From Natronolimnohabitans innermongolicus JCM 12255 (GTDB taxonomy: Archaea; Halobacteriota; Halobacteria; Halobacteriales; Natrialbaceae): a DNA stretch of 64,000 nt. The position numbers were made by a program, and so were the translations under genes. The stretch is from the NCBI RefSeq assembly GCF_000337215.1, contig NZ_AOHZ01000002.1, positions 1 through 64,000 of the forward strand, in the 5' to 3' direction. Below the pieces are notes generated by a model that did no database searches, was not told the origin of the DNA, and saw only the letters and a program-made list of their open reading frames with translations. Below, piece by piece: positions 47,588 to 62,601 of this stretch; position 1 is the first letter of the stretch; every line of letters begins with the position of its first letter.

Positions 47588-48632
47588 TCCCGCCGTCGGT
47601 TTCTCTTTACGCGTTCCCGCGCCGACGAGTTCTCGAGTTCTTCCGAAAGGAGTTAAACCCGATAGAAGTTTACCATTCCCTATCGTGTAACTGAAGAACA
47701 GTTAGTGGCTGCCGAACTCAACTCGAGTACAGACGGCAAATATGGATATGGGAGTTATGAGCTTCCACTGAACTTACTGTCACATTATCTCTCCGCACCC
47801 CAGACAATTACAACGAAAAAGCGTTTATTATTTCTGCCCTTATCTCCTACTAAAACATTCCATTAGGCTCTGTACCATCATTTGTCTGATTGTGTTGGTA
47901 GCGGACCGTAGCATGATAAACTACATTCTATTTATTAAAATAGGCCTGCCATTCCTACCCCGACTGTCAGCAAGGGTCACCACTACCAATTACTCGAGAG
48001 GGTGTCCACTTCCGGTCGGCAGTTCGATGTGCGCGTTTTTCGGGCGGAGGCTACGAACGGGGAACGCATCACCTGTATTTTAAACATTATTTGAGTTTGT
48101 AGTAGCTGCTTGCAGCACAGAACGAGGAAATGGGCCGAAGGCCCTAAGCGGTATTCGGTACCGTTCTCACGAGGTGACCATTCGAACGGCAACGAAACCT
48201 TGGTCCGTCCGATACGTATATCCCGTAGTTCGTCCTTCGAAAGGAAGAACCGGCGACAGCCTTTTACTCGCCGACGACGGCCGGTCCGGCGCTTACCGAA
48301 CTGGTTCGTCTCGCTATCACGTTCGATTCCGGGGCAAGCATTCGTCGACCAGCGATACATCCGGTCACGGTTCTGAACGAGTCTCGAGTCCCACTTGACG
48401 CTGCCCGTAACGTGACCGTTTCGGCCTCGAACGATGCCTATGCGATCGGTGCGTGGAAAGGCGAAACGATTGTGGGTTCTTTCACTACATTACATCCATA
48501 CATATGTAATTCCGGCCGCAATATTTTCGGCTTGTCGTCGAACTGCGGTGAGGCCACGACGCGTCGAACTGATCGACGGCCAGTGGCGAAAGAACTGTAT
48601 AGTCGACCACCCTACTCGTACATAGACCAACT
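47588..48632. other. 1-kb region without a convincing gene, boundary of the sulfur island
   Basis: The stretch is visibly AT-richer than the rest of the window (for example TTTATTAAAATAGG at 47930-47943 and TTTTAAACATTATTTG at 48076-48091). Several short frames (60-125 codons) exist on both strands but none shows a recognisable domain or the acidic composition of haloarchaeal proteins. I see no tRNA, hairpin array or transposase core. Worn-out mobile DNA or a decayed gene is possible, not shown. Confidence 0.5.
48597..48604 (+). promoter_or_regulatory. TATA-like box before the HTH-rhodanese gene
   Basis: GTATAGTC lies 29-36 nt before the ATG at 48633, the normal place for a haloarchaeal TATA element of a transcript with a very short leader. 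Confidence 0.45.
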
Positions 48633-49727
48633 ATGGCGGAAAACCAGACCGACACTGCACTCGAGGACTTACCGCCGAGTTCGAAGTTCATTTACAAAAC
48701 CCTCACAGACGAGGGCCCGATGACGCTCAAGGCGTTGACCGAGGAAACACTGCTCTCGTCGCGGACCGTTCGATACGGGTTGGACCAACTCTCCGAGGCC
48801 AAGCTCATCGACTCCTCGCCGGCCCTGCACGATGGTCGTCAGACGTGTTACCGACTCGCCGGCGAATCGTGCGGTAAAGGGGACACCGAGTCGTCGGTTC
48901 TGGTGTCACCGGAGTGGGTCGAAGAGCGGCTCTCGGCGTTCGAGCGAGACGACTCCGAGCTCCGACTCGTCGAAGCGGATGCCGAGTACGACGAGGGCCA
49001 CATTCCTGGAGCGGTTCAGATCGACGTGCTCGCCGACCTCGTCGACGTCGACGGCTGCGGGGTCGCGGACAAGCACTGCTTTGAAAAGTACGTTGGCGAA
49101 CGCGGCATTACCGAGGAGAGCACGGTCGTAATCTACAGCACCAACCGAAATCAGTACGCGGCGTATCTCTACTGGTTGTTTAAGTACTACCATCATACGG
49201 ACGTGCGATTGCTCGATGGGGGCAAACGACGGTGGAAGGCGGTCGGTGGGCCGACGACGACTGCCCGTCCGACGGTCACTACCCAGGAGTACACCGCCCA
49301 CTCCGCGGACGAGCGGATCCGCGCCTACCGAAGTGACATCAAGTCCGCGCTCGCGCGCGACGTCACGATCGTCGACGTCCGCTCGCCGGCCGAGTTTCGC
49401 GGCGAACAGACTCAGCCGCCGGACAAGGATCTCCCCAAAGCGCGGACGGCGGGCCACATTCCGGGGACTGCCCACATCACCTGGTCAGAAGTCATCGACG
49501 AACGCGGCCAGTTCAAAGACGAGGCGGCACTCGCTCACCTCTTTCGCGACCGAGCGATTCATCCCGACACGGAGACGATCGTCTACTGTCACGTCGGCGA
49601 ACGGTCATCGATCGTCTGGTTCGTCCTCTCGGAACTCCTCGAGTACGATGCCGTCTCGAACTACGACGGTTCCTGGATCGAGTGGGGCAACCTCGTCGAC
49701 GCCCCGGTCGAGACCGGCGAGGAGTAA
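48633..49727 (+). CDS. HTH-domain / double-rhodanese fusion (putative sulfur-responsive protein)
   Basis: 364 residues. N-terminal winged helix, about 1-80 (LPPSSKFIYKTLTDEGPMTLKALTEETLLSSRTVRYGLDQLSEAKLI). Two rhodanese domains follow, as in thiosulfate or mercaptopyruvate sulfurtransferases. In the first (about 90-215) the active-site strand is VVIYSTNRNQYAAYLYWL, with Ser instead of Cys, so it is inactive. The second (about 225-355) has IVYCHVGERSSIVW with catalytic Cys319. An HTH fused to a two-domain sulfurtransferase suggests regulation by persulfide, or DNA binding coupled to sulfur transfer. It heads the island. A plain enzyme with an accessory domain is the alternative. Confidence 0.8.
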   Translation: MAENQTDTALEDLPPSSKFIYKTLTDEGPMTLKALTEETLLSSRTVRYGLDQLSEAKLIDSSPALHDGRQTCYRLAGESCGKGDTESSVLVSPEWVEERLSAFERDDSELRLVEADAEYDEGHIPGAVQIDVLADLVDVDGCGVADKHCFEKYVGERGITEESTVVIYSTNRNQYAAYLYWLFKYYHHTDVRLLDGGKRRWKAVGGPTTTARPTVTTQEYTAHSADERIRAYRSDIKSALARDVTIVDVRSPAEFRGEQTQPPDKDLPKARTAGHIPGTAHITWSEVIDERGQFKDEAALAHLFRDRAIHPDTETIVYCHVGERSSIVWFVLSELLEYDAVSNYDGSWIEWGNLVDAPVETGEE

Positions 49728-49917
49728 AGTCGGGACGACGACGGAACCGCTTCGGCTCTGATACCCAGCCCGCTCGGCACTGACTGTCTACAGTCCGGGA
49801 CCGTGGTGTACAACGGCAAGATCGCAAGCCCCGTCGCGTCGCTCGACGATACCCGCAGTATTTGCGCCCTCCGGTCGGCGACTCGTCACCGACCGAGATT
49901 ATTATCCACAAACATAC

Positions 49918-49951: not shown

Positions 49952-51124
49952 ATGGTTCGTATAGTTGTAGTTGGGTCCGGGTCCGGTGGAGCGATGACGG
50001 CGAACATCCTCCGTCGCAAACTCGACGCCAACGCGATCGACATCACGGTCGTCGACAAGAGCACCGATCACTACTACCAACCCTCGTTCTACCTCGTGCC
50101 GTTCGGATACCTCGACCCCGATCAGTCGAGGGATGTCGACGAACTCCTCAAGCCGGGCGTCGAGTTCGTCCACGATGCTGTCACCAGTATCGACCCCGAC
50201 GAGGAAACCGTCTCACTCGCGGACGGGGACGACCTCGAGTACGATTACCTCGTCGTCGCGACCGGGCATCGACTCGATCCGAGCGCGATGCCGGGACTGG
50301 TCGAAGCCTGGGAAGAACACGACGACGTCTACCCGTTCTACCACTACGAGGCCGCCCTCGAGATGCGCGAGGCCCTCGAGAGTTTCGACGGTGGGACGTT
50401 CCTCGTCACCCAGCCCGATACGCCGATCAAGTGTCCGGGTGCGCCGCTGAAGCTAACGATGCTCGCGGAGGACTACTTCCGTCGACAGGGTATCCGCGAC
50501 GACGTCGAGGTCATCATGACCCGAAACGCCGAACACCACTTCGGCGTCCAGCCCTACCGCGACAAACTGTACGAGATCTGGAACGACCGTGATATCGAGT
50601 TCGTCGAGAACTTCTCCGTCGACCGGGTCGACCCCGACGCGGGCGTCGTCTACGGTGCTGACGGTGAAGAGATCGAATACGACCTCTACGCGCCGGTCAC
50701 TCCACAGTTCGGCCAGAAAGCGATTACCGAGGAATCGCCGCTTGCGGACGGCTCCGAGTCCGGCGAGTACATCACCATCGACCAACACACCTGCCAGCAC
50801 GACGACTACGACAACGTCTTCGCGTTGGGAGACTGTGAGAACGCCCCTCACTCGAAGACGGCCGCGGCCGCACGCAAACAGGCACACGTCGTCTCGAAGA
50901 ATCTGACGTCGCTGCTAAACGATCAGCCGATGCTCGCGGAGTACGACGGCTACGCCGCCTGTCCGTTGCTCACCAAGAAGGGGAAGGCGTTGATCGCCGA
51001 GTTCGATTACGAGGGGCCAATCTCCGCGCCCGTCGAGAGCAAGATGAACTGGATCATGGACGTCAACGTCCTCCCGTCGGTCTACTGGGACGCCTGGATG
51101 AAAGGCTACGATCCACTTCCGTAA
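49952..51124 (+). CDS. sqr: Sulfide:quinone oxidoreductase
   Basis: 390 residues. Flavoprotein that oxidises sulfide to sulfane sulfur and passes electrons to quinone at the membrane. FAD loop VVVGSGSGGAMTANIL; second strand VTVVDKSTDHYYQPSFYLV; YLVVATG; FAD-site VFALGDCENAPHSKTAAAARKQAHVV. Both redox cysteines needed by SQR are present: Cys161 in IKCPGAPLK and Cys337 in YAACPLLTKKGKA. The C-terminal tail (IMDVNVLPSVYWDAWMKGY) is amphipathic, as in membrane-bound SQR. One base separates it from the DUF1641 gene. A type II NADH dehydrogenase is unlikely because both cysteines are conserved. Confidence 0.9.
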   Translation: MVRIVVVGSGSGGAMTANILRRKLDANAIDITVVDKSTDHYYQPSFYLVPFGYLDPDQSRDVDELLKPGVEFVHDAVTSIDPDEETVSLADGDDLEYDYLVVATGHRLDPSAMPGLVEAWEEHDDVYPFYHYEAALEMREALESFDGGTFLVTQPDTPIKCPGAPLKLTMLAEDYFRRQGIRDDVEVIMTRNAEHHFGVQPYRDKLYEIWNDRDIEFVENFSVDRVDPDAGVVYGADGEEIEYDLYAPVTPQFGQKAITEESPLADGSESGEYITIDQHTCQHDDYDNVFALGDCENAPHSKTAAAARKQAHVVSKNLTSLLNDQPMLAEYDGYAACPLLTKKGKALIAEFDYEGPISAPVESKMNWIMDVNVLPSVYWDAWMKGYDPLP

Positions 51125-51125
51125 C

Positions 51126-51971
51126 ATGGCTCAGAAAGACCAATCGGTAGACGGTGACTTCGACGATACGCCCTTCGAGGCCGCCGAAGTAAACGAACTC
51201 GCTGAGACGCTCGAGGAAAACGACGAGGAACTCGCCGAACTTCTCGAGACGCTCGTCGTCGTCCAGGAGCTGTCGGCTGATCTCGCGCCCGAACTCCGCG
51301 AGGCAGCCCACGACTCCCGCGAGCCTATCGCCGAGTTACGAACGGCCCTAGAGCAAGAGGAAACGCTCGTGCTCGTCCAGCGGGTCGGCGAGAACGCCGA
51401 TACCCTCGTCGAACTGCTCGAACTGCTCGAGGTTGTCGACGAACTCGTGGGCGATCTGGTTCCGGAACTCAAGACGATCGTTCGCGAGAACCGCGAGACG
51501 ATCGCGCGGATCCGGGTCGCGCTGGAACGTGAGGAGACGCTCACGCTGCTCGAACGACTCGGTGAGAACGAGGAGACGTTGATCGAACTACTCGAGTTGC
51601 TCGACGTAACCTACGAACTCGCGGAGGACCTGGTGCCCGAGGCTGTGGCGGTCGTCCAGGAGAACCGCCAGCCGATCACGGAGCTTCGGATGATGGTCGC
51701 TGGGTTCAGCCACGCCTACACCGACGCAGACCTCGAGCCCTATCAGCTCGGACAGAACCTCGGGAACATGCTCGTGTTAGGGTATCAGCTCGGTGATGAG
51801 GAACTCATCAACTCCGTCGAGTCGGGTCTCGGTGCGTTCACCGAGGAGGAACCACCGAAAAAGATCGGCCTGCTGGGGATGCTCGGTGCGCTTCGCGACG
51901 ACGACGTCCGGCAGGGGCTCGGCGTTCTCGTCGAGTTCCTTCGGCGGATGGGTTCGGCACGGTCGGACTAG
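51126..51971 (+). CDS. DUF1641 repeat protein, putative SQR partner
   Basis: 281 residues, very acidic, mostly helical. Three units of exactly 58 residues (31-88, 89-146, then 147-194 partial) share the pattern EN..TL.ELLELL.V..EL..DL.PE and end in EETL.L..R.G. The C-terminal 80 residues (YQLGQNLGNMLVLGYQLG, LGMLGALRDDDVRQGLGVLVEFLRRMG) are the conserved DUF1641 core. No catalytic residues are evident. It follows sqr by 1 bp, an arrangement also seen in bacterial SQR loci (recalled, not checked), so it may anchor SQR to the membrane or shuttle sulfur. Confidence 0.85.
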   Translation: MAQKDQSVDGDFDDTPFEAAEVNELAETLEENDEELAELLETLVVVQELSADLAPELREAAHDSREPIAELRTALEQEETLVLVQRVGENADTLVELLELLEVVDELVGDLVPELKTIVRENRETIARIRVALEREETLTLLERLGENEETLIELLELLDVTYELAEDLVPEAVAVVQENRQPITELRMMVAGFSHAYTDADLEPYQLGQNLGNMLVLGYQLGDEELINSVESGLGAFTEEEPPKKIGLLGMLGALRDDDVRQGLGVLVEFLRRMGSARSD

Positions 51972-51990: not shown

Positions 51991-52118
51991 GTTTTCGGTA
52001 CTGTTCTCCTTCGGCGTCTGCTACTGGTATCCATGGTACCGTTCTTGGATTGCGAAAAAGTTACCCGCATCACCGATACCGAATGAGGAATGCGAAAAGA
52101 TTTCTTTTTGAATAGGAG

Positions 52119-52150: not shown

Positions 52151-52828
52151 ATGACTGACGAAAGCGACGAGAGTGGATTCCCACTCATCGGCGACCAGTT
52201 CCCCGAACTCGAGGTAGCGACGACCCACGGTCCAAAGTCGATTCCGGACGACTACGAGGGTAAGTGGTTCATCCTCTTCAGCCACCCCGGTGACTTCACG
52301 CCGGTCTGTACGACGGAGTTCGTCGGCTTCGAACAGCGCCGCGAGGCGTTCGAAGAACTGAACACCGAATTGATCGGCCTCTCGATCGACCGCGTTCACT
52401 CACACATCAAGTGGACTGAGTGGATCGACGAGGAGATCGACGAGAAGATCGACTTCCCGATTATTGCCGACGAAAGCGGCGATGTCGCCGACGCGCTCGG
52501 GATGGTCCATCCCGGCCAGGGGTCATCGACTGTCCGTGCGGTCTTCATCGTCGACCCAGAGGGGATCACGCGACAGGTTCTCTACTACCCCAAGGAGATC
52601 GGCCGCAACGTCGACGAGGTGCTGCGCTCGCTCGAAGCACTCCAGACGTCCGACCACGAAGGTGTCGCACTGCCGGCCAACTGGCCCGAGAACGAGAACT
52701 TCGGCGATAAGGTCCTGCTCTCACCGCCAGGAACCGTCGACGAGGCTGAAGCACGAACTGCCGAGGCCGACGAGGAGGGCTACGAGTCCTACGATTGGTG
52801 GTTCACGCTGAAAGAACTCGAGTCGTAA
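52151..52828 (+). CDS. Peroxiredoxin, one-cysteine Prx6/AhpC type
   Basis: 225 residues. Thiol peroxidase that reduces peroxides and possibly polysulfides. Active-site [15 protein letters not shown] with Cys53, and a C-terminal extension ([28 protein letters not shown]) as in archaeal Prx6. Cys53 is the only cysteine in the protein, so no intramolecular resolving Cys exists; recycling needs an external thiol, plausibly the thioredoxin-reductase-like flavoprotein 0.7 kb downstream or a small thiol. Confidence 0.9.
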
Positions 52829-52987: not shown

Positions 52988-53290
52988 ATGGGTGAAGCTA
53001 CCGTGAGCAGTGACCCTGATGAGCTGGTCGAACGGATCAACGAGCTTGCAACCGGCGGCCCGTCGACTGACGGCCAACAGTCGTCGGTCAAACGGTTCGC
53101 ACTCGAGCTCGTCCAGCAGTACCACGACCGGATCAACGAACACTACTACGAACGTGGCCGCTCGGACGCCGAAGCAGAGGCCCGCACGCTCGACGAAGCT
53201 GGCCTCTCGACAGCCGGCATCGTTCTGGCCATGAACGCGACGGGCCGGCCAGACGTTTCCGAACGGATGATAACTGCGTGTCTCGAGTAG
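52988..53290 (+). CDS. Unknown 100-residue helical protein
   Basis: 100 residues, acidic, soluble, predicted all-helix with one Cys near the C-terminus (ITACLE). Middle segment KRFALELVQQYHDRINEHYYERGRSDAEAEARTL looks amphipathic. No family recognised. It has its own good TATA-like box and lies between the peroxiredoxin and the flavoprotein, so a role in sulfur or thiol homeostasis is only guilt by association. Confidence 0.6.
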   Translation: MGEATVSSDPDELVERINELATGGPSTDGQQSSVKRFALELVQQYHDRINEHYYERGRSDAEAEARTLDEAGLSTAGIVLAMNATGRPDVSERMITACLE

Positions 53291-53504: not shown

Positions 53505-54551
53505 ATGCATACGGGATTCGATTACGACGTTGCAGTCGTCGGTGGCGGACCCGCTGGGTTGACGAGTGCGCTGTACACGACACGGCTGGGACTCGATACA
53601 GTGGTCATCGACCGTGGCGGTGGACGTGCCGCAATGATGCAAGAGACGCACAACGTGATCGGTATCACGGAAGAGACATCGGGCAACGAACTGCTACAGA
53701 CCGCCCGCGAACAGGTACAGGGATATGGTGCCGACGTCGAACGGGGGTTCGTCGAGTCGGTGACGCCACTCGGCGAGGGGGCCGATGACGGCTTCCGCGT
53801 CGAGACGGATGCTGAATCCTATCGGGTCTCTCGGGTCGTTCTCGCAACGGGCTTTGCCGACAAACGGCCCGATCCACCGCTCCCGCCGACCGGTCGGGGA
53901 CTGCACTACTGCCTCCTCTGTGATGCCTTCATGTTCGTCGACGAACCGGTCTACGTGATGGGGGCGGGCGAGGCTGGTGCACACGTCGCGATGATCCTGT
54001 TGAACTTCACCGACGACGTCGACCTGCTCACCCGGGGCGAGGACCCGTCCTGGAGCGACGAGACGGCGACGATGCTCGAGTACCACCCTGTCGATGTCGT
54101 CACTGCAGAAATTACAGGGATGAACAAGAGCGACGACGGCTGGCTCGAATCCTTCGAGTTCGAAGACGGGCAGGTTCGTGCCTACAGCGGCGGCTTCCCA
54201 ATGTATGGTTCAGACTACCACGACGAGGTCGTCGAAGGACTCGACATAGAGCGCACCGAGGACGGTTCCGTCGCCGTCGACGACCACGGCCAAACGTCGG
54301 TCGACGGCGTCTACGCGGTCGGTGACCTCACGCCGGGATACAGCCAGATCCCGGTTGCGATGGGCGAAGGCGCAATCGCCGGCATTACCATCCACAAAGA
54401 ACTACGAGCATTTCCGCGTTCACTCGAGGAGTTCGAGACGGAGGGTTCGGTTACTGATGCGGACGTGCCGGCACTCTCCGCTGAACTCGCCACAACGGCA
54501 GTCGAACACGACGGTCACGCACACTCTCCGGACGACCCTGATACCAAGTAA
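53505..54551 (+). CDS. Thioredoxin-reductase-like FAD/NAD(P) flavoprotein
   Basis: 348 residues. FAD loop VAVVGGGPAGLTSALYTTRLGL; redox pair CLLC in GLHYCLLCDAFMF (takes the place of the CAxC of thioredoxin reductases); NADP loop VYVMGAGEAGAHVAMILL; C-terminal FAD motif VDGVYAVGDLTPGYSQIPVAMGEGAIAGI. The family reduces a thioredoxin or other disulfide; in this island it may recycle the one-Cys peroxiredoxin or a persulfide carrier. The LC residues between the Cys and the missing NADPH arginines hint at altered cofactor use, which is inference. Confidence 0.85.
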   Translation: MHTGFDYDVAVVGGGPAGLTSALYTTRLGLDTVVIDRGGGRAAMMQETHNVIGITEETSGNELLQTAREQVQGYGADVERGFVESVTPLGEGADDGFRVETDAESYRVSRVVLATGFADKRPDPPLPPTGRGLHYCLLCDAFMFVDEPVYVMGAGEAGAHVAMILLNFTDDVDLLTRGEDPSWSDETATMLEYHPVDVVTAEITGMNKSDDGWLESFEFEDGQVRAYSGGFPMYGSDYHDEVVEGLDIERTEDGSVAVDDHGQTSVDGVYAVGDLTPGYSQIPVAMGEGAIAGITIHKELRAFPRSLEEFETEGSVTDADVPALSAELATTAVEHDGHAHSPDDPDTK

Positions 54552-54648: not shown

Positions 54649-54671
54649 GGGCAGTTCGAGGTTTGTACTGT

Positions 54672-55847
54672 ATGCCAGAGGCCATTTCGGCAGCAGAGCT
54701 ACGAGACCGAATCGAAGCTGACAATCTTGACGTGCTCTTCGACACGCGAGCACCGGAAGACTACGAGGATTGGCGCATCGCCGAGGCTGAAAACGTCGAG
54801 TACTCCGGTAGTGACGACGAACTCGTTGGTGACTTCGACCCCGAAGCGTACGACACGAACGACGAGATCGTCGTCACGTGTGCAACGGGGCGCTCGGCTG
54901 GCAAGTTCGCCGCGTACCTCGATGAAGTCGAGGGATTCGAGAACGTCGCCCACGTCGAGGGTGGGATGGAAGACTGGAGCCTGGTCTACGATGTTGTCCC
55001 AATCGCAACCACGCGGGATGACCTCGAACTCCTCCAGTTGCAGCGTCGTGCGAAAGGGTGTCTGGGCTACCTGATCGGTTCGAAGCGCACCGGTAAGGCC
55101 GCCCTCGTCGACGTCACCCGCGCGACCGACGCCTTCGAGGACGCTGCCGCCGAACGCGGCTACGAGATCGAGCGGGTATTCGACACCCACATCCACGCCG
55201 ATCACATCTCCGCGGGCCGAATCGTAGCCGAGAAGTACGGCGTTCCGTACCATCTCGGCGAGCCCGCCAACACGCGTGACCCACAGTTCGAGTTCGACGG
55301 CCTCGAGCCCAACGAGACCGTCTCGGTCGGCGACGTGTCGATCAAGGCGGTCCATACGCCGGGTCACACGACCGGTATGACCGCCTATCTCGTCGAGGAC
55401 GAGGCACTGCTGACCGGCGACACCCTGTTCGTCGAATCGATCGGTCGCACCGAACTCCAGTTCGCCGGCGAGGACGCCAAATCCGGCGCCCGCGTCCAGT
55501 ACGAGACGCTCCACCACAAGATCGGGACGCTGCCCGACCACGTCAAGATCCTGCCCGGACACTTCTCGCTGACCAACTGCGGCGAGTACATCGACGTCGA
55601 ACCCGGCATGCCCATGTTCTCGACCGTCGGCGAGATCTGGGCGAAAAACGAGATCATCCAGCTCGAGGAAGACGCGTTCGTCGAACACATGTTCGATAAC
55701 CTCCCGTCCAAGCCCCCGAACTACGAGAAGGTCATCGAGACGAACCTCGGCGTCTACGAACCCAACAGCGAAGACGAGCGCAACGAACTCGAGCTCGGTC
55801 CCAACCGCTGTGCCGCGACCGAAGACAGCGCCGTCGCTGACGATTAA
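54672..55847 (+). CDS. Rhodanese-MBL fusion, persulfide dioxygenase type
   Basis: 391 residues from the ATG at 54672. N-terminal rhodanese (about 1-110) with VVTCATGRSAGKFAAYL carrying the active cysteine. The metallo-beta-lactamase domain (about 125-330) has VFDTHIHADHISAGRIVA, AVHTPGHTTGMTAYL, LLTGDTLFV and ILPGHFSL, the ETHE1/persulfide dioxygenase pattern. It should oxidise glutathione-type or other persulfides to sulfite. The rhodanese-first order differs from the MBL-first order of several bacterial fusions. A tail of about 60 residues (EYIDVEPGMPMFST onward) ends in KPPNYEKVIETNLGVYEP, seen in many MBL sulfurtransferases. No promoter-to-gene gap problems. Confidence 0.88.
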   Translation: MPEAISAAELRDRIEADNLDVLFDTRAPEDYEDWRIAEAENVEYSGSDDELVGDFDPEAYDTNDEIVVTCATGRSAGKFAAYLDEVEGFENVAHVEGGMEDWSLVYDVVPIATTRDDLELLQLQRRAKGCLGYLIGSKRTGKAALVDVTRATDAFEDAAAERGYEIERVFDTHIHADHISAGRIVAEKYGVPYHLGEPANTRDPQFEFDGLEPNETVSVGDVSIKAVHTPGHTTGMTAYLVEDEALLTGDTLFVESIGRTELQFAGEDAKSGARVQYETLHHKIGTLPDHVKILPGHFSLTNCGEYIDVEPGMPMFSTVGEIWAKNEIIQLEEDAFVEHMFDNLPSKPPNYEKVIETNLGVYEPNSEDERNELELGPNRCAATEDSAVADD

Positions 55848-56015: not shown

Positions 56016-57056
56016 ATGGAGATACTCGGACTCAGCCTGCCGCTGCTCGCGTTGTTCGTGAGCTTCGGCTTCATGGTCGGGGTGCTGTTCGGCTTCTTCG
56101 GGATGGGCGGGTCGTTCCTGATCACGCCGACCCTGTTGATCCTCGACTACCCCGCCTCGGTCGCGATCGGCAGCGGGCTGGCGTTTTACTTCGGCACCTC
56201 CGTCATCGCCGTGTTGAAACACTACGACATCGGCCAGGTCGACTACAAGCTGGGTGCGATCCTCTTCGTCGTCCTTTCGGTCGGGATCGAACTCGGCAGT
56301 CGGCTCGTCTTCGCCCTCGAGGCGCTGGGTATCGCCGAACTCGTCACGGGCATCGCATACATCGTCCTGCTCGCTGGGATCGGTGCGCTGTTCCTGCGAC
56401 GCGCCTACAACCTCGAGGACGACGGGAACGACGCAGACGATGCAGACGATGCAGACGATTCGGACGACGAGAACCCAGCGATCGGACAGAAGATCCAGTC
56501 GTACAACGTGCCACCAATGATCTCGTTGACCTCCGGCGGTCGAGCCTCGGTGTGGACGATCTCCGGCGCAGGCGGCGGCGTCGGTCTCGTCTCGGGGCTG
56601 ATCGGCGTCGGTGGCGGCTTCATCCGCATGCCCGCCATCCACTACCTGATCGGCACACCCCTGACGGCCGCGGTTGGGACGAGCCTGTTCGCCGGGCTGT
56701 TCTCGGGTGCGTTCGGGACCTTCACCTACGGCATGTCCGGCAGCGTCGACCTGACGGTCGTCTCGCTGTTGCTGGTCGGCAGCGCCCTCGGCGCCAAGAT
56801 CGGTTCCGCGGCGACGACGATCGTCGAGGAGAACGACGTGATCGTCTACTTCGGGCTCATGATGGTGTTTGCCAGTATCGGTATCGCGCTTTCCGAACTC
56901 TCCGACTGGCTCGGCACCGGTTCGCTCGAGGTCGTGAGCGTCTTCCTGTTGGTCGGATCGTCGTTTTTCGTCGCCGCGATGATCCTCTACCAGGTCGTTC
57001 AGCAAACCGGATCGGACGAATCACACGCGCAAACGACTCTTGACGGAGGCGACTGA
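56016..57056 (+). CDS. TauE/SafE (TSUP) family sulfite/sulfur-compound exporter
   Basis: 346 residues with eight to nine membrane segments in two repeats, each starting with the family motif (FGFFGMGGSFLITPTLLIL; LIGVGGGFIRMPAIHYLIG). The family exports sulfite, sulfoacetate or other organosulfur anions, and thiosulfate uptake is known for YeeE-type relatives only. A cytoplasmic loop (about 134-160) holds an Asp-rich repeat coded by a 9-bp microsatellite. Position after the rhodanese-MBL gene suggests export of the sulfite it makes. Confidence 0.87.
   Translation: MEILGLSLPLLALFVSFGFMVGVLFGFFGMGGSFLITPTLLILDYPASVAIGSGLAFYFGTSVIAVLKHYDIGQVDYKLGAILFVVLSVGIELGSRLVFALEALGIAELVTGIAYIVLLAGIGALFLRRAYNLEDDGNDADDADDADDSDDENPAIGQKIQSYNVPPMISLTSGGRASVWTISGAGGGVGLVSGLIGVGGGFIRMPAIHYLIGTPLTAAVGTSLFAGLFSGAFGTFTYGMSGSVDLTVVSLLLVGSALGAKIGSAATTIVEENDVIVYFGLMMVFASIGIALSELSDWLGTGSLEVVSVFLLVGSSFFVAAMILYQVVQQTGSDESHAQTTLDGGD
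56433..56459 (+). repeat. 9-bp microsatellite in the TSUP gene
   Basis: GCAGACGAT three times in tandem (56433-56441, 56442-56450, 56451-56459), coding ADD three times. In frame, so copy number changes would alter only an acidic loop. Confidence 0.85.
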
Positions 57057-60600: not shown

Positions 60601-60833
60601 TGAACCACCTTCCGACTGGCCGCGTTCTCGACTGACCCGGTTCGAGCAATATTTTCCGGGAGGTGGTCGATGTGAGGTCGTGACGCATCGAAAATCGTCC
60701 GGTTCGACTCATTTAGGCGTCGGAACCGGCTAGTTTCGAACGGGATGGCCACCGCTACGTTCCCCAGTCGAACGACCCCGACGTCACCGACCGTATCGAA
60801 CCGCATCCCGCCCGCGTCACCCAACCCAAAACG

Positions 60834-62270: not shown

Positions 62271-62601
62271 CGGCGCTGCCCGCGTGTAGCGGGCAGGTTC
62301 GGTTAAGCGACCGGCTGGCACCCAATATTGTCGGTTGAAACGCGACGGATGGAGGTATCGACAGTCATTGCCGGTATAGTGGTAACCCCCGAACAATCTC
62401 GAATCGGCTAATCCCGTACCGCTGAATCAGTAATTCCGTCGTTCAAACGCCGGAAGCGAATAGACAGAATAACTTTGGTTTGTGAACCGAAAGTCGAATA
62501 CCGGGGAGCGTATTTCTGGTCCATCCATCGAATTTTGGATATGTACGAAGTGTAGCTTACCGGTGTTGAACACCTATTCGTAGTTACTTGGTGAGCATGA
62601 T
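62271..62601. other. 331-bp divergent promoter region between trmO and cydA
   Basis: AT-richer than its flanks (for example AATAACTTTGG near 62468 and TTGGATATGTACG near 62533). AATCGGCTAATCCC and TATAGTGG strings occur but I can assign no TATA element or operator with confidence. No gene is seen. Confidence 0.4.

Follow-up and report, generated by a model that had tools for sequence, protein, structure and literature searches.

One gene of the window, as we call the whole 64,000-nt stretch of DNA analysed here (Natronolimnohabitans innermongolicus JCM 12255, contig NZ_AOHZ01000002.1, positions 1–64,000), encodes a winged helix-turn-helix (wHTH) joined in one chain to an entire thiosulfate sulfurtransferase (TST) of two domains, and its comparison across haloarchaea suggests that the fusion protein, HTH-TST, is a switch for the neighbouring sulfide-detoxification genes. 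A regulatory role, predicted from comparative data, is well supported. We consider it rather probable that HTH-TST is a one-component regulator of the local sulfide-oxidation genes, whose TST part would be the sensor, with sulfur relayed from the catalytic cysteine C319 to a cysteine of the wing, C72. The comparison supports the fusion, its link with SQR, a predicted promoter box, the link of this box with the fusion, the conservation of C72 and C319, and an alteration of the catalytic loop. The gene and its domains are located as follows.

48633–49727, plus strand: HTH-TST fusion gene, an open reading frame of 364 aa
48660–48866, plus strand: winged helix-turn-helix, approximately aa 10–78 (Pfam matches below cut-off; AlphaFold2 and Foldseek results given below)
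48846–48848, plus strand: codon of the wing Cys72, in the motif GRQTCY (RQ[TS]CY in 40 of 42 fusions)
48894–49277, plus strand: N-terminal rhodanese domain, without a catalytic Cys (S169), as is ordinary in two-domain TSTs
49317–49712, plus strand: C-terminal rhodanese domain (Pfam, PDB relatives, Foldseek)
49587–49589, plus strand: codon of the catalytic Cys319, in the loop CHVGERSS (Cys in 42 of 42 fusions)

The open frame, the loop VVIYSTN of the first rhodanese and Cys319 of the second one had been pointed out in an earlier, sequence-only reading of this DNA, and the codons agree with it (S169 is encoded at 49137–49139); the coding score of 48633–49727 is positive in a codon model for which this gene was one of 11 training genes. 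Both rhodaneses proposed in that reading are recovered by Pfam (two Rhodanese matches in the 364-aa product, 96.4 bits), and the winged helix that it proposed, which is N-terminal, scores below the Pfam cut-off of 27 (HTH_20, 20.2 bits; MarR_2, 17.8 bits). Despite these low scores we consider the HTH to be real, since AlphaFold2 folds the isolated 80-aa HTH into a winged helix (pLDDT 87.5), and the best PDB matches of this model are MarR proteins (Foldseek, E 2.5e-4), that is, the fold is of the MarR type. As for the flanking dimerization helices of MarR-type proteins, a single short helix (aa 3–11) precedes the wHTH of HTH-TST, and the chain continues into the TST. The same winged helix is present elsewhere in the genome of the window as solo proteins of 85–103 aa, with several paralogues. 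In Vulcanisaeta (L111–L118) it is found, without the wing Cys, at the C-terminus of an enzyme with the GSTAYAMSAGGP motif, which we take to be NAD-kinase-like.

Residues from approximately 78 to 364 constitute a complete TST of the CysA2/CysA3 type, with two tandem rhodanese domains in a single chain and the catalytic Cys confined to the C-terminal domain. Among solved structures, Mycobacterium CysA2 and CysA3 and the Thermus rhodanese come closest (PDB 3hwi, 3aay, 1uar; phmmer E 2e-67 to 8e-66); they are approximately 42% identical to this part and have the same fold (Foldseek E 3e-28 with a TM-score over target of 0.93; range of this score 0.90–0.94). The sequence-only reading had treated the first domain as a pseudo-rhodanese with Ser where Cys should be. 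A decayed active site is ruled out, as 3hwi, the closest solved two-domain TST, reads lyggNNN at the same loop of its N-domain, with no Cys, so that Ser169 is ordinary TST anatomy rather than a loss; the Cys-less loop VVVYGDN is also observed in five of six unfused haloarchaeal TSTs (for the sixth, another loop was read). HTH-TST thus shares with TSTs of the CysA2/CysA3/Thermus type the Cys-less N-domain and the C-domain Cys, and differs from them in the added wHTH and in the loop, CHVGERS or CNVGERS rather than CRIGERS. The candidate role of HTH-TST as the only TST of the organism is ruled out by an unfused two-domain TST (L002, 47% identical) in the same genome.

Conservation at the wing and at the catalytic loop was assessed in 42 fusions, a set that includes L063 and excludes L096. 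In the family alignment, C72 is the sole conserved cysteine of the HTH part, and none of eight aligned unfused haloarchaeal wHTH relatives has Cys at this wing position, the residue there being Leu, Lys or Val. The two exceptions to the RQ[TS]CY motif among the 42 fusions are L064, where the Cys is located two residues before the usual wing position, and L051. The latter, a second copy in genome G029, located away from SQR, has no wing Cys and a loop altered to CHVGWRSA, as if its function had been released. In L063 (genome G021) the fusion gene adjoins cydA and has a TGA codon in its frame; G021 has a second copy, L064, with an open frame.

The catalytic Cys is followed by His in 19 fusions, Asn in 20, Gly in two, and Ser in one, and by Arg in none of the 42, hence the CRxGxRS loop with Arg, typical for two-domain TSTs, is not seen in any fusion. 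Arg does occupy this position in all 25 distinct unfused haloarchaeal TSTs (25 and not 26, because one gene, from G012, belongs to both sets). Residues of the rhodanese loop shape the choice of the sulfur donor, and therefore the donor use of the fusions may have shifted.

Among the matches listed, which reach down to E 5.9e-81, so that fusions of greater divergence may have escaped the count, the full-length fusion is present in at least 24 of 292 haloarchaeal genomes. With fusions counted among these matches, the SQR subtype (E ≤ 1e-140) is found in 24 of 24 fusion genomes versus six of 268 others, and the fusion gene and SQR are adjacent in 23 of the 24 fusion genomes, the exception being G010. 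A scan of a collection of named genomes yielded 35 loci, 23 of them fusions, from Natronorubrum, Natrialba, Natrinema, Haloferax, Halolamina, Halobellus, Halorientalis, Halorussus, Natronomonas, and others. The TST domains of 41 fusions occupy one side of a single branch (SH-aLRT 95; the tree, with 41 rows, excludes L063 and L096), and hence one fusion event fits these data. Rows dropped were L065, a cut copy treated as a near-duplicate of L061, and contigs matching already counted genomes (L086, L088–L091, L094, L095, L098, L103).

In the window, the genes from SQR through TauE run downstream of the fusion gene on its strand, and an HTH_10 regulator and cydA follow approximately 12 kb on.

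49952–51124, plus strand: SQR-like flavoprotein, type III-like (NCBIfam SQR_III_seleno, 319.5 bits at a cut-off of 525)
51126–51971, plus strand: DUF1641 protein, 1 bp past SQR (Pfam)
52151–52828, plus strand: 1-Cys peroxiredoxin, Prx6-like (Pfam)
52988–53290: conserved 100-aa ORF with no Pfam match, on either strand in relatives
53505–54551, plus strand: thioredoxin-reductase-like flavoprotein (Pfam, NCBIfam)
54663–55847, plus strand: rhodanese-MBL protein, persulfide-dioxygenase-like (bifunc_ST_SDO, 56.5 bits, below cut-off)
56016–57056, plus strand: TauE/SafE permease (Pfam)

In many relatives outside the closest group of the window, the rhodanese-MBL gene and the fusion gene are in divergent orientation. 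The candidate promoter elements of this region are listed below (the palindromic boxes are given with no strand).

48518–48528: box GCAATATTTTC before the fusion gene, at –110 of it, exact consensus, PWM score 17.0
48587–48602, plus strand: putative BRE/TATA-like element CGAAAGAACTGTATAG, approximately 31–46 bp before the ATG, assigned by inspection
49855–49865: box GCAGTATTTGC at –97 of SQR, with one departure from the consensus
52094–52104: weak box GAAAAGATTTC before Prx6, score 11.6
60646–60656: second exact box, between Usp and the HTH_10 regulator upstream of cydA

The box, GMAATWWTTKC, is an 11-bp palindrome. Counted from the start codon of SQR, it is located between –95 and –100 in all 40 of the 40 loci, and its copies agree with the consensus at 8–11 of the 11 positions; related loci in these counts are not independent, and the consensus was picked after the SQR promoter alignment on start codons had been seen. 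Among 3840 dyads scanned, the top-ranking one was CAAT-N1-ATTG, present in seven of 28 fusion-gene upstreams versus one of 383 controls (p 2.4e-8), followed by CAAT-N0-ATTG (five versus one) and TTAC-N12-GTAA (6/28 versus 5/383). A matrix was trained on the SQR boxes alone and then applied to the other upstreams, L063 being excluded from the counts and L096 kept. Thirty-eight of 42 fusion-gene upstreams score above the 95th percentile of a set of 544 controls, from which neighbours sharing the promoter of the fusion had been removed (AUC 0.96), and so do 32 of 33 Prx6 upstreams, whose box was missed by the looser CAAT pattern and found by the matrix. The same threshold is passed by none of 40 DUF1641 upstreams, one of 19 TauE upstreams, and one of 12 TrxR upstreams, and the rhodanese-MBL upstreams score like controls in loci where this gene and the fusion gene are not in divergent orientation. 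None of 119 column-permuted and 31 complement-swapped matrices beats the AUC of 0.96, the mean being 0.81, and thus A+T richness is a part, not all, of the signal; the nearest permutation, with two almost identical columns swapped, ties it to the second decimal.

No good box precedes the fusion gene in L050, L064, L066, and L067, two of which (L066 and L067) do have one before SQR. Upstream of HTH10 the same box is present in L082 and L083. An exact CAATATTG is located at 62323–62330 in the window, between a TrmO_N gene and cydA.

In the 4.59-Mb genome of the window the exact box is found at seven places, two of them within the window; at four of the five outside places the neighbours have no obvious role in sulfur metabolism, and the fifth (L122) gave no gene call. 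These further places would fit a core-promoter or general haloarchaeal regulatory element unrelated to HTH-TST. We hold such an element to be very improbable: exact sites are rare, 152 in 88 Mb, and 28 of these 152 (24 fusion genomes) are within 15 kb of a fusion gene with 1.46 expected, an approximately 19-fold enrichment, although five of the 24 genomes have none within this distance; the scores of the fusion upstreams against the 544 controls argue against it as well, and so does the absence of the box from the SQR cluster genes of genomes with no fusion.

Six genomes have SQR without the fusion, and their clusters (L075–L080) hold an unfused TST beside an HTH_10 regulator. All six of these regulators have three Cys, and the TST gene is directly 3′ of the HTH_10 gene, within 60 bp or overlapping in five clusters and within 90 bp in the sixth. 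The TST is thus tied to a regulator in two ways, being fused in HTH-TST and encoded beside HTH_10 in these six clusters, and it is possible that the unfused TST and the three-Cys HTH_10 are a two-protein version of the same sensor. No matrix site above 11.5 is present at the SQR, TST or HTH10 genes of the six clusters; five of the six stretches have no such site, and L077 has one of 12.6 beside other genes. In G010 the contig that carries the fusion gene also carries SQR, approximately 100 kb away, and SQR still has the box at –99 (9 of 11 positions). Hence the box and the fusion travel together.

These data bear on another alternative, by which HTH-TST is mainly a pathway sulfurtransferase, its HTH being a decaying or accessory passenger, and the box is bound by a solo wHTH or by the HTH_10 regulator. 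The HTH_10 regulator of the window has a box of its own, several solo wHTH paralogues exist, and a TST is a plausible step in sulfide oxidation. Still, the aligned HTHs all share R44, T45, L53, and Y73, some box-bearing stretches show no HTH10, the HTH10–TST clusters have no box at their genes, and the loss of the loop Arg in every fusion speaks against an unchanged enzyme, so we find this alternative improbable. The sequence-only reading had suggested a sulfur sensor for the island, and this putative role gains much support from the co-occurrence and adjacency of the fusion with SQR and from the shared promoter box; the predicted boxes at 48518–48528 and 49855–49865 fall where it proposed footprints, near 48.6 and 49.9 kb.

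The preferred reading, that of a regulator with a relay, could operate as follows. The MarR-like winged helix, probably dimeric, would bind GMAATWWTTKC before its own gene, SQR–DUF1641, and Prx6, and in some genomes also before the persulfide-dioxygenase-like gene and the HTH10–cyd unit, the fused two-domain sulfurtransferase being the sensor. SQR would oxidize sulfide to sulfane sulfur, which would be taken by C319 and handed to the wing C72 of its own chain or of the dimer partner; sulfur on C72, the probable switch residue, would alter DNA binding. We infer the binding of the box by HTH-TST itself, its dimerization, the persulfide transfer, the C319-to-C72 chemistry, and the sign of control. 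The sequence-only reading had proposed that persulfide would be signalled to the DNA by the active Cys, and did not mention C72; the relay is a more specific proposal, as it builds on the conservation of this wing cysteine.

Alternatively, HTH-TST could bind the box and sense by C319 alone, persulfide or thiosulfate occupancy of which would move the domains, or by low-molecular persulfides on C72, with no transfer from C319 to C72. The link with SQR and the box fit this scheme equally, and excerpts of PMC9995734 report a reaction of known persulfide sensors, SqrR among them, with low-molecular persulfides. On the other hand, a whole TST with Cys in all 42 fusions and a C72 specific for the fusions fit the relay better, making sensing without transfer rather unlikely. 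The relay reading can be carried further, to a self-loading sensor with the sulfurtransferase as the input domain, in which the sulfur of C319 would be written as a C72 persulfide, catalysis would itself be sensing, and the sister clusters would use two proteins for this; we regard this extension as tentative.

Activation by the sulfur-loaded HTH-TST would be the slightly favoured sign of control, because in the window the boxes precede the presumed TATA of both genes (SQR, –97; fusion gene, –110), and because the same position goes with activation by OxsR of Haloferax, for which PMC9426492 describes the sign as set by the motif position relative to BRE/TATA. The placement varies by group, however, and some loci also have CAATATTG at –12 of the fusion gene, where a repressor might be expected to bind.

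The gene set resembles that of known persulfide regulators. The SqrR-dependent set in Rhodobacter comprises a peroxiredoxin, SQR, a sulfurtransferase, a rhodanese protein, and a flavin disulfide reductase (excerpts of PMC9995734), and BigR controls a sulfur transferase/dioxygenase (abstract of PMC5823870). Both SqrR and BigR are, as proposed for HTH-TST, local regulators of sulfide-oxidation genes, and the linkage of SQR and PDO genes with a shared box, the predicted operator, is observed for HTH-TST too. The differences are in the protein: the HTH part is below the ArsR-family thresholds (HTH_20, 20.2 bits versus 27; HTH_metalloreg, 16.9 versus 55), and instead of a conserved Cys pair in an ArsR fold HTH-TST has one wing Cys, the only one conserved in its DNA-binding part, and the catalytic Cys of the fused TST. 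To our knowledge, neither SqrR nor BigR has an enzyme domain.

OxsR of Haloferax volcanii (TrmB family) is a haloarchaeal thiol-based regulator with a single winged helix, likewise a winged-helix protein; as described in PMC9426492, it differs from HTH-TST in having C24 at the dimer helix, a CG-rich motif, and a response to hypochlorite. It is also a stand-alone wHTH, unlike HTH-TST, whose chain runs into a full TST, and the word "rhodanese" does not occur in the main text of that paper. SurR and MsvR are archaeal ArsR-type DNA-binding proteins with cysteines responding to S0 or oxidation, and the passages on them in the same source mention no sulfurtransferase domain, unlike that of HTH-TST. 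In Rhodobacter capsulatus the rhodanese rcc01557 alters the output of the persulfide sensor SqrR; according to excerpts of PMC9995734 these are separate proteins, whereas in HTH-TST both functions would be joined in one chain. Searches of open-licence PMC articles for HTH-rhodanese fusions or a haloarchaeal sulfide regulator gave no title or abstract opening that describes HTH-TST. As a one-component regulator whose input is an entire sulfurtransferase, HTH-TST would be a new variation on known regulators.

SqrR and other known persulfide sensors bind DNA, and their signal reaches them by diffusion; how sulfurtransferases bring sulfur to particular protein targets is a question that persulfide signalling has long posed. 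With the transferase and the putative promoter switch in one chain, two point mutants and a single operator of 11 bp would be enough to test such delivery, and if the proposed reading is true, haloarchaea would gain a regulator that responds to sulfide and has a defined promoter box.

Some other elements are seen in these promoters. Just upstream of the box of the fusion gene, at 48490–48509 (no strand), sequence inspection reveals a second palindrome, TTACAT-N8-ATGTAA; it was considered as a putative operator, its variants being found in close relatives only. An element similar to the BRE/TATA-like one of the window is present in the fusion promoters of most close relatives. A loosely conserved A+T-rich element (CATTATT/CAATTGTT-like) is located near 49900 in the window, at about –52 of SQR, and a similar one is observed approximately 45 bp past the box in many SQR promoters.
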